The notes beneath the pieces were generated by a model, which saw nothing but the letters and a program-made list of their open reading frames with translations, searched no databases and was not told where the DNA came from. A stretch of 64,000 nucleotides of DNA. Source: Gammaproteobacteria bacterium (lineage in GTDB: Bacteria; Pseudomonadota; Gammaproteobacteria; SZUA-152). Both the position numbers and the translations under genes were made by a program. Positions 28,233 through 32,560 of the stretch are shown here, one piece after another. The stretch is from positions 1 to 64,000 of the forward strand of contig JAVVEP010000011.1 in assembly GCA_032250735.1 (NCBI GenBank), read 5' to 3'. The first letter of the stretch is position 1. The number at the start of each line of letters is the position of its first letter.

Positions 28233-28286
28233 GTTCATTGCTACCGCGATGCGTGATGTCGGTCCCAACCTATACGAGTGGAAACT

Positions 28287-29909
28287 ATGACGAATTTAGA
28301 AGAACGGGCAGCAACTCCTAACCTGAGCCGGACCATGGTTGCGGCGAATTCCAGGGCCTTCCTGGCTTTTCTGCTCTGCACCGCGGTGCTGAGCGGTGCC
28401 CTGGTGATGGTCATCCAAGTGCTGGGTTCCCGCGTGGTCGGTCCCTTTTTCGGCGTCAGCCTGTTTGTCTGGACTTCCCTGATCACCGTGACGCTGCTGG
28501 CCCTGGCCGTGGGCTACGCCATCGGGGGGCTGTTGTCGGATCGCTTTCATCAGCCGGGTTATCTGTTCGGCATTATTTTGCTAGCCGGGGTGCTGGCCTT
28601 ATTCATTCCGATTCTAAAGGGTCCCGTGTTGAAGGCCTGCCTTCCGCTAGGCCTGAAGGCCGGGGCCTTTGCCAGCACCCTGATTCTGTTCGGGCCGGTG
28701 TTGTTGTTGCTGGGCTGTGTCTCGCCGTATCTGGTAAAACTGGCCGCGCGCGAGTTGCAGAATCTGGGGCGCATGGTAGGTGGGCTGTATGCCCTGTCGA
28801 CCATCGGTAGCACGGCGGGTACGGTACTGACGGGTTTTGTGTTGATCGCCTATCTGAGTGTCGATCAGATCTTTGCGCTGACGGGCGGTCTGCTGATGGC
28901 CCTGGCGGCGATCTATTTTGTGGCCTTTCAGCGCCGCTGGTGGGTGCTGGTGATACTGGTTTTACCCTTTTTGCTGTACCAGCCACAGGAGGCGGTATCT
29001 CGCACCATGGCGGATGGCACCCAGGTGGATCTTGTGCATCGGCAGGATAATTATTACGGCGACATTAAGGTGGTGGATTATAGTTTTGGGAAAACCCACT
29101 ACCGGGAAATGATTATCGATGGCATGGTTCAGGGTGGGATTGATCTTGCGGATAACCTGTCGGTTTATGAATATACCTATTTTATGAAATTCCTTCCCTT
29201 TATGCTGGCGCCGGAGGGGAAGCGATGCCTGATGATCGGGCTTGGTTTGGGGGTTATTCCCAGCTGGTATGAGCAACAGGGCATCCAGTGTGACGTGGTC
29301 GATATCAACCAGGCCGTGGCAGAGATTGCACGTGACTATTTTAATTTCAGGATTTCCGGCGATCTGTTTATTGAAGATGCGCGCTATTTTCTCAACAGCA
29401 CCGATCGTGATTATGACTATATATTGTTAGATGTTTTTAGTGGCGATATTACCCCGGCACATCTGTTGAGCAGGGAGGCGTTGTCATTAATGCGCGAACG
29501 CCTGCGGCCCAATGGCGTGCTGGCCATCAACCTGATTGGCAGCCTGCAACGGGAAACCTTCATGACTGCGTCCATAGTGAAGACCCTGCAATCCGTCTTC
29601 AACGTGGTCGATATTTATCCCACCTTTAACACGGAAAAATCCACGATCGGTGTAGGAAATCTTGCGTTGATGTCCTATCAGGGCGAGCGCAGGGAATTGC
29701 GGATTGATCACGCCCGGTTTCAGAGTCATGCCCGCGTCAGCGAACAGGTGTTTGCCAATCTGGGGCGGCGTTACGAGTTTCCGGCCCATACCCCGGCGAT
29801 GATATTGACCGACGCGTACAACCCTGTCGATTTCTTTGATGGCTGGCTGCGTGAAACGGTACGCAAAAGCATTCTGGAATCGACGAATTGGGACATTCTG
29901 ATCAGTTAA
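28287..29909 (+). CDS. Membrane-fused spermidine synthase-like protein
   Basis: A 540-residue protein. Its first 225 residues hold seven or so hydrophobic helices, and residues about 240-520 form a spermidine synthase-like Rossmann domain: CLMIGLGLGVIPSWYEQQG, DVVDINQAVAEIARDYF, YILLDVFSGDITPAHLLSREAL. Such fusions are common in bacteria and mostly lack a proven aminopropyltransferase activity. The family name is therefore structural. ATG 28287 is preferred to GTG 28278 on ribosome-site spacing. Confidence 0.85.
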   Translation: MTNLEERAATPNLSRTMVAANSRAFLAFLLCTAVLSGALVMVIQVLGSRVVGPFFGVSLFVWTSLITVTLLALAVGYAIGGLLSDRFHQPGYLFGIILLAGVLALFIPILKGPVLKACLPLGLKAGAFASTLILFGPVLLLLGCVSPYLVKLAARELQNLGRMVGGLYALSTIGSTAGTVLTGFVLIAYLSVDQIFALTGGLLMALAAIYFVAFQRRWWVLVILVLPFLLYQPQEAVSRTMADGTQVDLVHRQDNYYGDIKVVDYSFGKTHYREMIIDGMVQGGIDLADNLSVYEYTYFMKFLPFMLAPEGKRCLMIGLGLGVIPSWYEQQGIQCDVVDINQAVAEIARDYFNFRISGDLFIEDARYFLNSTDRDYDYILLDVFSGDITPAHLLSREALSLMRERLRPNGVLAINLIGSLQRETFMTASIVKTLQSVFNVVDIYPTFNTEKSTIGVGNLALMSYQGERRELRIDHARFQSHARVSEQVFANLGRRYEFPAHTPAMILTDAYNPVDFFDGWLRETVRKSILESTNWDILIS

Positions 29910-30059: not shown

Positions 30060-31619
30060 ATGACTGAAAAATCCCCCCGCCGTCCGGTCGTATTGATCAT
30101 CCTCGACGGTTTTGGTGTGAGTCCCAGCAGGCTCAATAATGCGGTGGCTCAGGCGCACACCCCGCAGCTGGATAAATATTTCTCCCGCCACGTCCATACC
30201 TTGTTGCAGGCCTCGGGCAGCGCGGTGGGCCTGCCAGACGGCCAAATGGGCAATTCCGAGGTCGGACACCTGACCATGGGCTGTGGCGCGATCGTGCGGC
30301 AAGATCTGGTACGCATCGATAGCGCCATTAACGATATGAGTTTCTTTGAAAATCTCGCGCTCATGGATGCCGTGGGACATGCCCGCAATAACCAGCGCCC
30401 CCTGCATCTGGCGGGGCTGGTTTCCGATGGTGGTGTGCACAGCGATATCGCCCATCTGCTGGCGCTGATTGAACTGTGTCGGCGCAACGATGTACGGCCG
30501 GTGCTGCATATGTTCACCGATGGGCGCGATACCGCGCCGGTTTCCGCCCTGCATTATCTGGATCAGATCGAACCATCGCTGCGCTCGGCCGGTGGCAGCA
30601 TCGCCTCGGTGAGCGGGCGTTATTTCGCGATGGATAGGGACAATCGCTGGCTGCGCACCGAGCAGGCCTGGCGGGCCATCACCCTTGCGCAGGGCGTGCA
30701 TGCCGAATCGGCGCGGGATGCCATTGAGGCGGCCTATGCCGCAGGCAAAACCGATGAATTTATTGTGCCCACGGTGATCAATGGCGGCGAACCTGTTCAG
30801 TGGGGCGACCCGCTGCTGTTTTTCAATTTCCGCAAGGATCGCGCGCGTCAGCTGACGGCGGCGCTGGCTAAGCAGGAGTTCAGCCATTTTGATCGCGGCG
30901 ATTACACGCCCATCAGCGTCACCTGCATGACCGAATATGACGAATGGTACCGTTTGCCGTTTGCGTTCAAGCAAGACCGGCCCCAAACCACCATGGCCGA
31001 GGTGATCAGCCGCGCCGGCCTGCGCCAGTTCCATTGTGCCGAGACCGAAAAATACGCCCACGTCACCTATTTTCTAAACGGTGGCAAGGGGGATCCCTTT
31101 GCCGGGGAGGAGCGGGTGATCATCGATTCGCCCAGGGTTGCCACCTACGATCTGCAGCCGGAGATGAGTGCGGACAAGGTGGCGGATGCCGTCATTGAAG
31201 CTATGAATAGCAAGGATTTCGCCTTTATTGTGGTGAATTTTGCCAATGGCGACATGGTGGGGCATTCCGGTATTCCCGCTGCCGCGATAAAGGCCGTGGA
31301 GGCCCTGGATCGTGAGGTGGGCCGTCTGCTGGATGTAGCCGATGGCGCGAACTGGTCGGTGGTACTCACGGCCGATCACGGCAACTGCGAACAGATGGTG
31401 GACCCCGTGAGTGGAGAGCCCCATACGCGACACACGGTCTACCCGGTGCCCTGTCTGATTATCGATGAAGTGCCCTGGCAATTGGCGGTGGGGGCGGGCC
31501 TGAGCGCGATTGCGCCCACGGTGCTGCACCTGCTGGGCCTGCCGATCCCCGAGGCGATGAGCGGTCGTTCGCTGTTGCTGAAGCCGATTGCCCGCCAGGC
31601 GTCGTCTTCCCCTGCATAA
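30060..31619 (+). CDS. gpmI: 2,3-bisphosphoglycerate-independent phosphoglycerate mutase
   Basis: A 519-residue cytosolic glycolytic enzyme interconverting 3- and 2-phosphoglycerate with two manganese ions. The N-terminal metal motif is LIILDGFGVS. The phosphoserine is in DGQMGNSEVGHLTMG. HMFTDGRDTAP and a later ADHGNCEQM supply further metal ligands. Length is normal. A palindrome lies in its leader. No close terminator follows, so the first hairpin terminator at 31831-31866 may serve it. Confidence 0.97.
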   Translation: MTEKSPRRPVVLIILDGFGVSPSRLNNAVAQAHTPQLDKYFSRHVHTLLQASGSAVGLPDGQMGNSEVGHLTMGCGAIVRQDLVRIDSAINDMSFFENLALMDAVGHARNNQRPLHLAGLVSDGGVHSDIAHLLALIELCRRNDVRPVLHMFTDGRDTAPVSALHYLDQIEPSLRSAGGSIASVSGRYFAMDRDNRWLRTEQAWRAITLAQGVHAESARDAIEAAYAAGKTDEFIVPTVINGGEPVQWGDPLLFFNFRKDRARQLTAALAKQEFSHFDRGDYTPISVTCMTEYDEWYRLPFAFKQDRPQTTMAEVISRAGLRQFHCAETEKYAHVTYFLNGGKGDPFAGEERVIIDSPRVATYDLQPEMSADKVADAVIEAMNSKDFAFIVVNFANGDMVGHSGIPAAAIKAVEALDREVGRLLDVADGANWSVVLTADHGNCEQMVDPVSGEPHTRHTVYPVPCLIIDEVPWQLAVGAGLSAIAPTVLHLLGLPIPEAMSGRSLLLKPIARQASSSPA

Positions 31620-31757
31620 TGACCGCCCCGGTTATCGCTTCCCCCGCCGTCTTGCATCTGTGGGACAAGGGATGTGGGCAAGGACGCTGATTGAAGCAGC
31701 GGGGCACGCGAACCGTCTCTTATATAATAAAAAGATATATTTATTGAAAATTATCAC

Positions 31758-31786
31758 TTCCAGTGAAAATGTGGGTTTGCTATATT
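31758..31786 (+). promoter_or_regulatory. Extended -10 promoter of small RNA candidate 1
   Basis: TTCCAG (31758-31763), a 17-nt spacer ending in TTGC, and TATATT (31781-31786). The TGC before the -10 box makes it an extended -10 promoter, which offsets the weak -35. A start near 31793 is predicted. An AT-rich tract (31718-31752) lies upstream and could act as an UP element. Confidence 0.55.
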
Positions 31787-31792
31787 GATCTT

Positions 31793-31866
31793 ACTTTAAA
31801 CAAACCCCCTATATTGTTTAAACGAAAAAGCCGCCACCTCAGCCCTGCTGATGGCGGTATTTTTTT
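31793..31866 (+). ncRNA. Predicted small RNA 1 (C-rich loop hairpin, sibling of RNA 2)
   Basis: A predicted transcript of about 74 nt. It opens with an 8-bp stem, TTTAAACA (31795-31802) pairing with TGTTTAAA (31815-31822), around the 12-nt loop AACCCCCTATAT. A short A-rich linker follows, then a terminator stem CCGCCA/TGGCGG (31831-31836, 31852-31857) and a T run to 31866. The exposed C-rich loop could pair with Shine-Dalgarno-like AGGGGG sequences. There is no ORF. The alternative is that this is only the distal terminator of gpmI, but that would not explain the conserved 5' hairpin or the second copy. Confidence 0.55.
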
Positions 31867-31975
31867 GGTGGGTGTTTTTCTGGGCGGGAGGCGGGAACGA
31901 AAAAACCGTCCATGGGCGCTGCATGAAAAGGGTGCATTTATCTGCAATCGGGATGTTTTTATTGGAAATAATCAT

Positions 31976-32004
31976 TTCTCACGAGAAGCACCGCTTGCTA
32001 CTGT
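31976..32004 (+). promoter_or_regulatory. Extended -10 promoter of small RNA candidate 2
   Basis: TTCTCA (31976-31981), a 17-nt spacer again ending in CTTGC, and TACTGT (31999-32004). The spacing and the TGC extension match the promoter of candidate 1, giving a predicted start near 32011. It is weaker at the -10 box than the first. Confidence 0.45.
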
Positions 32005-32010
32005 GGAGTC

Positions 32011-32077
32011 ACTTCCAAACAAACCCCCTATCTGTTTGAATCCAGCCGCGCCATCCCCATAGCGCGGTTTTTTTTTT
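32011..32077 (+). ncRNA. Predicted small RNA 2 (sibling of RNA 1)
   Basis: A predicted transcript of about 67 nt. A 6-bp stem, CAAACA (32016-32021) with TGTTTG (32033-32038), holds the loop AACCCCCTATC, nearly the same as in RNA 1. At the stem base, a T-A pair of RNA 1 is replaced by a C-G pair here, a compensatory change. The terminator stem CCGCGC/GCGCGG (32046-32051, 32062-32067) and a run of ten T follow. It differs from RNA 1 outside the hairpin, which supports selection on the loop. Confidence 0.55.
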
Positions 32078-32134: not shown

Positions 32135-32560
32135 CTAGCGCTGGGCGGCGATCAATTCCTCAATGACCTTGGCCAAGGCCTCACGTTGCAGTTTGGGTAA
32201 TTTCATCCACATTAAACCGAGATCAAAGGCCTCTTTGCTGAGCTTGTCCCTGCCGATGAGGGGGAGATTTTTGCCCTCACCGCGGGGGTTTTCACTCTTG
32301 TTATAGGGCTCCCCCTGTCCCGAGAGTAACCAATTGGAGCGTACCTTGGTGAGGTCGGAGAGCTTGACCAGGGCAGATGTCCGCGGAAAGGCATCGCCCT
32401 TAAGCCAATGGCCGACATCCTGAACGGGGACATTCAGTAATTCGGCGAGGCGTGACTGGCGCCCGCCCCCCAGTTTGGGGAACTGGATATTGTCCAGGGC
32501 ATCGTTGAGCCGCTCGGCAAAACGCATTCTTTCACTGGAGGTGGTTTTCTTGTTTGGCAT
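32135..32560 (-). CDS. XRE-like helix-turn-helix transcriptional regulator
   Basis: A 141-residue protein with a lambda-repressor-like DNA-binding domain (about 12-80): RMRFAERLNDAL, then GGRQSRLAELLNVPVQDVGHWLKGDAFPRTSALVKLSDLTKVRSNWLLSGQGEP, as in phage-type regulators. The C-terminal part (95-141) is a short helical tail, LGLMWMKLPKLQREALAKVIEELI, without the peptidase fold of CI/LexA. It is convergent with the two small RNA candidates and divergent from YjbQ. No phage genes are nearby, so it is probably a chromosomal regulator. Confidence 0.83.
   Translation of the reverse strand: MPNKKTTSSERMRFAERLNDALDNIQFPKLGGGRQSRLAELLNVPVQDVGHWLKGDAFPRTSALVKLSDLTKVRSNWLLSGQGEPYNKSENPRGEGKNLPLIGRDKLSKEAFDLGLMWMKLPKLQREALAKVIEELIAAQR

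Follow-up and report, generated by a model that had tools for sequence, protein, structure and literature searches.

A family of tandem small RNA genes with C-rich loops in uncultured marine gammaproteobacteria, and a candidate cytochrome target

The window analyzed here, 64,000 nucleotides of a contig from an uncultured marine gammaproteobacterium (positions 1 to 64,000 of JAVVEP010000011.1), carries two short units within the 515 bp that separate the end of gpmI at 31619 from the next gene (Table 1). In agreement with the first-pass annotation, which had proposed twin small RNA (sRNA) genes, each unit presents an extended -10 element, a 17-nt spacer, a 5′ hairpin and a terminator with a T run. 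No consensus sigma-70 promoter was found at the units, and the -35 boxes match poorly. Neither predicted RNA has a start codon before its terminator, so both are noncoding by inspection; we presume that both are transcribed. The hairpin loop AACCCCCUAU is common to the two units, and the 3.43-Mb host genome has exactly two copies of the sequence CAAACCCCCTAT. In a pairwise alignment the likeness of the units extends about 45 nt into promoter DNA (TTATTGnAAATnATCAnTTC...GAnAA...TTGCTA, from ~45 nt upstream of the -10). Since this likeness reaches beyond the hairpin into the promoter, the units are true duplicates, promoter included.

Table 1 Features of the sRNA locus in the window
Feature	Coordinates	Strand	Remarks
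Spermidine-synthase-like membrane protein	28278..29909	+	Conserved neighbor; adjoins sRNA directly upstream in sister genus
gpmI (phosphoglycerate mutase)	30060..31619	+	Upstream neighbor; 77% identity, same order in G005, G007, G008, G010, G011
Unit 1 upstream element TTGAAAATTATCACTTCCAGTGAAAAT	31744..31770	+	Spans -35 region; type-A relatives have TATCAYTTCCNNTGANAAG
Unit 1 -35-like TTCCAG	31758-31763	+	17-nt spacer to -10
Unit 1 extended -10 TGC TATATT	31778..31786 (hexamer 31781-31786)	+	Predicted transcription start about 31792
Unit 1 sRNA	31790..31866	+	~75 nt predicted; covariance model R1 61.0 bits; corrected model R2 60.4 bits, E 7e-13
Unit 1 5′ hairpin TTTAAACA-AACCCCCTATAT-TGTTTAAA	31795..31822	+	Stem 31795-31802/31815-31822, loop 31803-31814
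Unit 1 intrinsic terminator	31830..31866	+	T7 ending 31866; helix 2 covaries
Unit 2 upstream element TTGGAAATAATCATTTCTCACGAGAA	31962..31987	+	Spans -35 region
Unit 2 -35-like TTCTCA	31976-31981	+	17-nt spacer to -10
Unit 2 extended -10 TGC TACTGT	31996..32004 (hexamer 31999-32004)	+	Predicted transcription start about 32010
Unit 2 sRNA	32009..32077	+	~68 nt predicted; R1 75.7 bits; R2 70.1 bits, E 1.6e-15
Unit 2 5′ hairpin CAAACA-AACCCCCTATC-TGTTTG	32016..32038	+	Stem 32016-32021/32033-32038, loop 32022-32032
Unit 2 intrinsic terminator, loop CATCCCCATA	32045..32077	+	T10 at 32068-32077
CI-repressor-like gene, convergent	32135-32560	-	Next after the units

The same architecture recurs in relatives, where a pattern search gave 14 clear copies. 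A covariance model (R1), run on related genomes, finds members at E<1e-8 in 11 of the 12 genomes of the genus and in six of the seven of its sister genus, g3. The terminator helix of R1 was one column out of register. With the rebuilt model R2, which has the corrected pairing, every type-B copy (see below) scores E<1e-11, and a member in a third genus (G014, g4), outside the training set, is recovered at E 3e-9. This diverged copy lies at an unlinked locus near a tRNA gene (L093 4476-4554, minus strand) and has a longer stem and a double C-rich loop, ACCCAUGCCCCCAA. A third copy in the host was not found by R2 in 864 kb of its genome. The class-wide distribution rests on R1, which gave no convincing member beyond the family's own among 369 evenly sampled class genomes; a match in G176 (E 0.008) was set aside as chance (13.8 bits with R2), and weak matches in G016 and G018 were not accepted as members. 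A scan of 84,980 species with the core hairpin returned Gammaproteobacteria metagenome assemblies only (isolate names HyVt-444, HyVt-583, NORP100, SZUA-152, S013_42 and others), apart from one Enterococcus contig that we treat as chance, a few chance matches being expected for the pattern. Viral contigs gave no match to the family. No Rfam family matches in the window at its gathering score; RF02278, Bp1_781, ErsA, GcvB and αr14 gave below-threshold matches only. We regard it as practically certain that the family is real. Judged by these searches, it is undescribed, not in Rfam and restricted to a single group of uncultured marine bacteria.

Comparison of the members indicates which parts of the RNA are held constant. 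The pairwise difference is 0.016 in the loop and 0.08/0.02 in the two sides of the 5′ stem; it reaches 0.30-0.33 in the terminator stem and 60% in the terminator loop. Because loop and 5′ stem both differ so little across members, both are under constraint. The earlier proposal that the stems differ while the loop is kept holds for the two copies in the window, which are distinguished by one compensatory C-G to U-A pair plus two extra pairs, all in unit 1, but it fails family-wide, where conservation of the 5′ stem almost equals that of the loop. The near-invariant portion of the RNA is ACAAACCCCCUAU...UGUUUG. Over the whole structure 28 two-sided changes are counted, against 9.0 ± 2.3 in shuffles; the terminator stem covaries, and two helices are conserved. 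With the corrected pairing 95% of cells are paired, and the signal collapses on a one-column slide. Nearly all members have a -10-like hexamer at constant distance, the U tail is mostly 7-10 nt, and terminator loops are often C/U-rich, most strongly in type B (CCUCCCCCUCCC).

An element over the -35 region is conserved as TATCAYTTCCNNTGANAAG in type A and takes the variant form AAATAAGTTCCAATGATAAG in type B. As a regulon marker it was uninformative: outside the sRNA loci there is one one-mismatch site (G007), plus scattered two-mismatch sites. The family promoters hold no consistent Fur site (mean best match 10.7/19, against 10.4 in shuffles) and no consistent FNR site (6.9/10, against a shuffled 6.35, sd 0.78); sigma-54 and CRP sites are not consistently above shuffles. 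The family was accordingly not placed with the Fur- or FNR-controlled sRNAs of the RyhB/PrrF and FnrS type, which are defined here by such promoter sites.

The usual gene order around the locus is queC, a SAM-hydroxide adenosyltransferase (SAM-HAT) gene, the spermidine-synthase-like gene, gpmI and the sRNA; gpmI is absent between the last two genes in g3 and in G006. Whether relatives keep the AACCCCCTAT hairpin next to gpmI had been set beforehand as the test on which the sRNA proposal could fail, and the outcome was strongly in its favor. Tandem pairs are present in eight genomes (G000, the host, with G002, G004, G005, G007, G008, G010 and G011). A tree of promoter and RNA separates an A clade, with both units of the window, from a clade of B copies plus g3 (support 98/97); B-clade loops are, for example, ACCUCCCCCC. 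The tandem siblings are thus old. Three copies are found in G011, one B and two A (contigs C132 and C169; L217, L218). Its B copy sits at the end of a contig with ~2.8 kb between it and gpmI, an arrangement suggesting that the locus has undergone insertion or rearrangement. The sRNA is gone from G003, where the neighbor of gpmI is the SRP RNA gene (RF00169; L213 5228-5324) and the RNase P RNA lies ~4.3 kb further; nor was the OmcE-like gene discussed below found in this 73%-complete assembly. The uniqueness of CAAACCCCCTAT to the two units, the conservation of promoter and pair across species and the covarying terminator argue that the pair is more than chance. The siblings had been called redundant. 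Units 1 and 2 do share their loop, but elsewhere in the genus the C-rich loops and the promoters differ between A and B siblings, a sign that the regulators have diverged and are not simply redundant. Type B, with its more generic anti-Shine-Dalgarno (anti-SD) loop, may serve other mRNAs.

A candidate target emerges from the loop itself. Its reverse complement, ATAGGGGGTTT, is found at only three places in the host genome, opposite the two sRNA genes and at one ribosome-binding site (RBS). There, an 11-mer match (G000:C7:45858-45868) lies over the Shine-Dalgarno (SD) sequence, four bases before the ATG at G000:C7:45872, and the RBS, AUAGGGGGUUU, is complementary to the sRNA loop at all 11 nt. 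The encoded protein has four CxxCH motifs (c-type heme) and matches PDB 7TFS, the Geobacter OmcE filament (PMC12954529), at E 7e-19. On the strength of these motifs, this match and its position at the head of a cytochrome cluster, we identify it as an OmcE-like tetraheme cytochrome; by homology it might also form filaments. The cluster lies outside the window in the same genome (G000:C7:45872-about 67000; L200, L201). Behind the OmcE-like gene it encodes a SurA/PpiC-type PPIase, three 3-heme c7-type proteins, two 11-heme cytochromes with MtrC/MtrF-like domains and a lactonase-like beta-propeller protein, and it is probably an extracellular electron transfer island in this uncultured marine gammaproteobacterium.

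The same 11-mer stands at the RBS of orthologs in 12 genomes of three genera (G000, G001, G005 with three gene copies, G009, G011, G013, G015, G017 and G019-G022). It belongs to a conserved leader block, CGAGACCATAGGGGGTTTC, with the predicted fold GAGACC(AUAGGG)GGUUUC, in which the SD occupies the loop. The predicted hairpin has -6 to -8 kcal/mol in nearly all orthologs and -3.3 in G011, and is absent from the leaders of g2, g4 and G018. Genera without a clear type-A sRNA (g2, g4 and g6) have the RBS CAGGGGGUUACAU/CAGGGGGTTACAT or similar, and no hairpin. In G002, G008 and G010 the RBS variants AUAUGGGGG pair more weakly. The next gene of the cluster, for the PPIase, has no conserved leader block.

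In a test with the loop AAACCCCCUAU, the candidate target ranks 1/757 among sampled host start regions, and 7 of 300 shuffled loops reach an 11-nt match. The chance of such a match is ~2% for the sampled set of 757 starts and higher for the whole genome, and the match counts as one evolutionary event; taken alone it is suggestive, and it is its conservation that carries the weight. Full-length duplex energies, calculated without accessibility, place the candidate only 13th/74th, because long imperfect duplexes dominate; we judge the loop-only ranking the fair test, although it was picked second, after the full-length one. Many start regions come within 2-3 kcal/mol of the best duplex energy. 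The expectation of the first-pass annotation that a C-rich loop pairs with SD sequences is thus supported by the conserved exact match over the OmcE-like SD. The search near start codons that it had called for gave a divided answer, an exact 11-nt match at one RBS but no enrichment of TAGGGGGT before ATG over a reversed control. By a rough count AGGGGGTT is enriched ~1.8-fold before ATG; few of the loci examined show a gene start.

The reading that we favor, and hold to be likely, is that the units encode sibling trans-acting double-hairpin sRNAs that repress translation of the OmcE-like cytochrome mRNA, and of other mRNAs too, by pairing of their loop with the SD. The 5′ hairpin would present the C-rich anti-SD loop AAACCCCCUAU, and the second hairpin would be the terminator with its long U tail. 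As the complementary RBS sits in a conserved mRNA hairpin, contact would probably start loop to loop, between the sRNA loop and the SD loop of GAGACC(AUAGGG)GGUUUC; pairing would then extend to 11 pairs, and ribosome binding and initiation would be blocked. An RNA chaperone is presumably used; no Hfq, CsrA or Fur was found in host stretches covering about a quarter of the genome. Control of this class of protein by an sRNA is plausible, since RyhB controls cytochromes in Shewanella (PMC5826389). The OmcE-like gene cannot be the sole target, as four genomes (G004, G006, G007 and G023) keep the sRNA without a close ortholog; there, either the sRNA has additional targets or the assemblies lack the gene. 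A bolder version, to which we give a little less than even weight, is that sRNA loop CCCUAU and mRNA loop AUAGGG form a dedicated, co-evolved kissing pair that controls how much of an OmcE-type extracellular cytochrome (nanowire) these marine bacteria make, and that the tandem siblings, diverged in promoter and loop, allow the capacity for electron export to be set by two signals. The anti-SD C-rich-loop riboregulators would be joined by an undescribed sRNA family from bacteria for which only metagenomes are available; such regulators seem to have arisen repeatedly, and the family is tied to a concrete, testable candidate target. The sRNA loop may switch off production of a cytochrome that has a conductive 'nanowire' protein as its relative; if this is true, an OmcE-like nanowire-type cytochrome, and probably extracellular electron transfer too, would be under direct sRNA control.

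The strongest competitor, to which we assign roughly a one-in-five standing, holds that these RNAs are general translation dampers for growth control, whose C-rich loops pair promiscuously with many G-rich SDs, the OmcE-like gene being one strong example. The type-B siblings, with near-perfect anti-SD loops (ACCUCCCCCCAG) and C/U-rich terminator loops, fit this, as do the four genomes that have the sRNA but no close OmcE-like gene, the many near-best start regions and the slowed growth on overexpression of Burkholderia RF02278 RNAs (PMC5688073). But C-richness does not require a type-A loop that is almost invariant outside the C run too (AAAC..UAU), nor a match to one gene conserved on either side of the G run. 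Rather unlikely is that the hairpin in the cytochrome leader acts in cis on its own, for example as a thermosensor or as the site of a leader-binding protein, with accidental complementarity to the sRNA. The conserved block does run 5′ past the complementary part (CGAGACC) and folds alone, and the match is complete in G015, where the sRNA was not found; the flanking spermidine-synthase-like gene was not found there either, so the sRNA locus may just be missing from the assembly. Against a purely cis role, the loop AUAGGG and its flank GGUUU are the exact complement of the sRNA loop, and g2, g4 and g6, the genera without a clear type-A sRNA, have a different RBS and no hairpin.

Two further explanations carry little weight with us. 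A conserved hairpin whose stem letters are conserved along with the loop could be a protein site, so that the loop would act as a sponge for a C-rich-RNA-binding regulator instead of binding mRNA; that reading makes a coincidence of the exact, conserved complementarity at the SD of an mRNA, and no protein partner is known, which makes this improbable. That the units are decaying terminator or promoter debris and not transcribed genes is hardly credible: the poor -35 boxes and the lack of a consensus sigma-70 promoter would suit debris, but an extended -10 at constant spacing in almost every member, the covarying terminator stem and the near-invariant loop over two genera would not.

Comparison with known systems places the units, as putative sRNAs, in a functional kind, sibling sRNAs with C-rich anti-SD loops, which is not one homologous family: they are homologous copies with the same loop, and SD complementarity is present as the exact conserved match at one RBS (rank 1/757). 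One close likeness is to the Burkholderia double-hairpin RNAs of RF02278 (Betaproteobacteria_toxic_sRNA; ncS03, ncS05, ncS27 and ncS62), in which CU-rich regions cover RBSs and overexpression slows growth (PMC5688073). Their short members (57-67 nt) have only two hairpins, their CU-rich unpaired regions are complementary to RBSs, there are several homologs per genome, and three of the four share a common upstream motif (PMC5688073). The units, too, are short RNAs with two hairpins, the second being the terminator. However, the loop here is AACCCCCUAU against a CCUCC type there, and the genes are in tandem, while those of Burkholderia are dispersed. Unit 2 scores 23.0 bits against the RF02278 gathering cut-off of 50, and in a genome-wide search with this model unrelated places score first, none over the cut-off.

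The αr14/NfeR1 RNAs of rhizobia (RF02344) likewise have anti-SD motifs in hairpin loops, differing stems and several copies, but they are alphaproteobacterial and have three hairpins with an identical ultraconserved CCUCCUCCC (PMC10746234), in contrast to type A, which has two hairpins, the loop AACCCCCUAU and no such motif. Type-B siblings reach a weak, sub-threshold 28.6 (G010, the best score) and 25.9 bits with the αr14 model, whose gathering score is 58.8; membership was rejected. The Neisseria siblings NmsR and NgncR_162/163 are similar in their adjacent genes, a loop that pairs with RBSs and metabolism targets (PMC9973317); they are betaproteobacterial and have three stem-loops, and no Neisseria family is among the Rfam matches to units 1 and 2. 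Shewanella RyhB, which represses c-type cytochromes at their 5′ ends (PMC5826389), is unrelated in sequence and under Fur/iron control, unlike the present family, whose promoters give no Fur-box signal.

Two other loci carry related sequences before gene starts. In G018, a genome without a clear family sRNA, ATAGGGGGTTTC stands directly before the gene of a ~400-aa exported protein (L148, G018:C123:7649; start TTG/ATG). In the host, AATATAGGGGGT lies immediately ahead of the gene for a small class-I cytochrome c (L120, G000:C1:105696-105710) and is complementary over 12 nt to the unit-1 loop ACCCCCUAUAU(U); this gene is a possible second cytochrome target.
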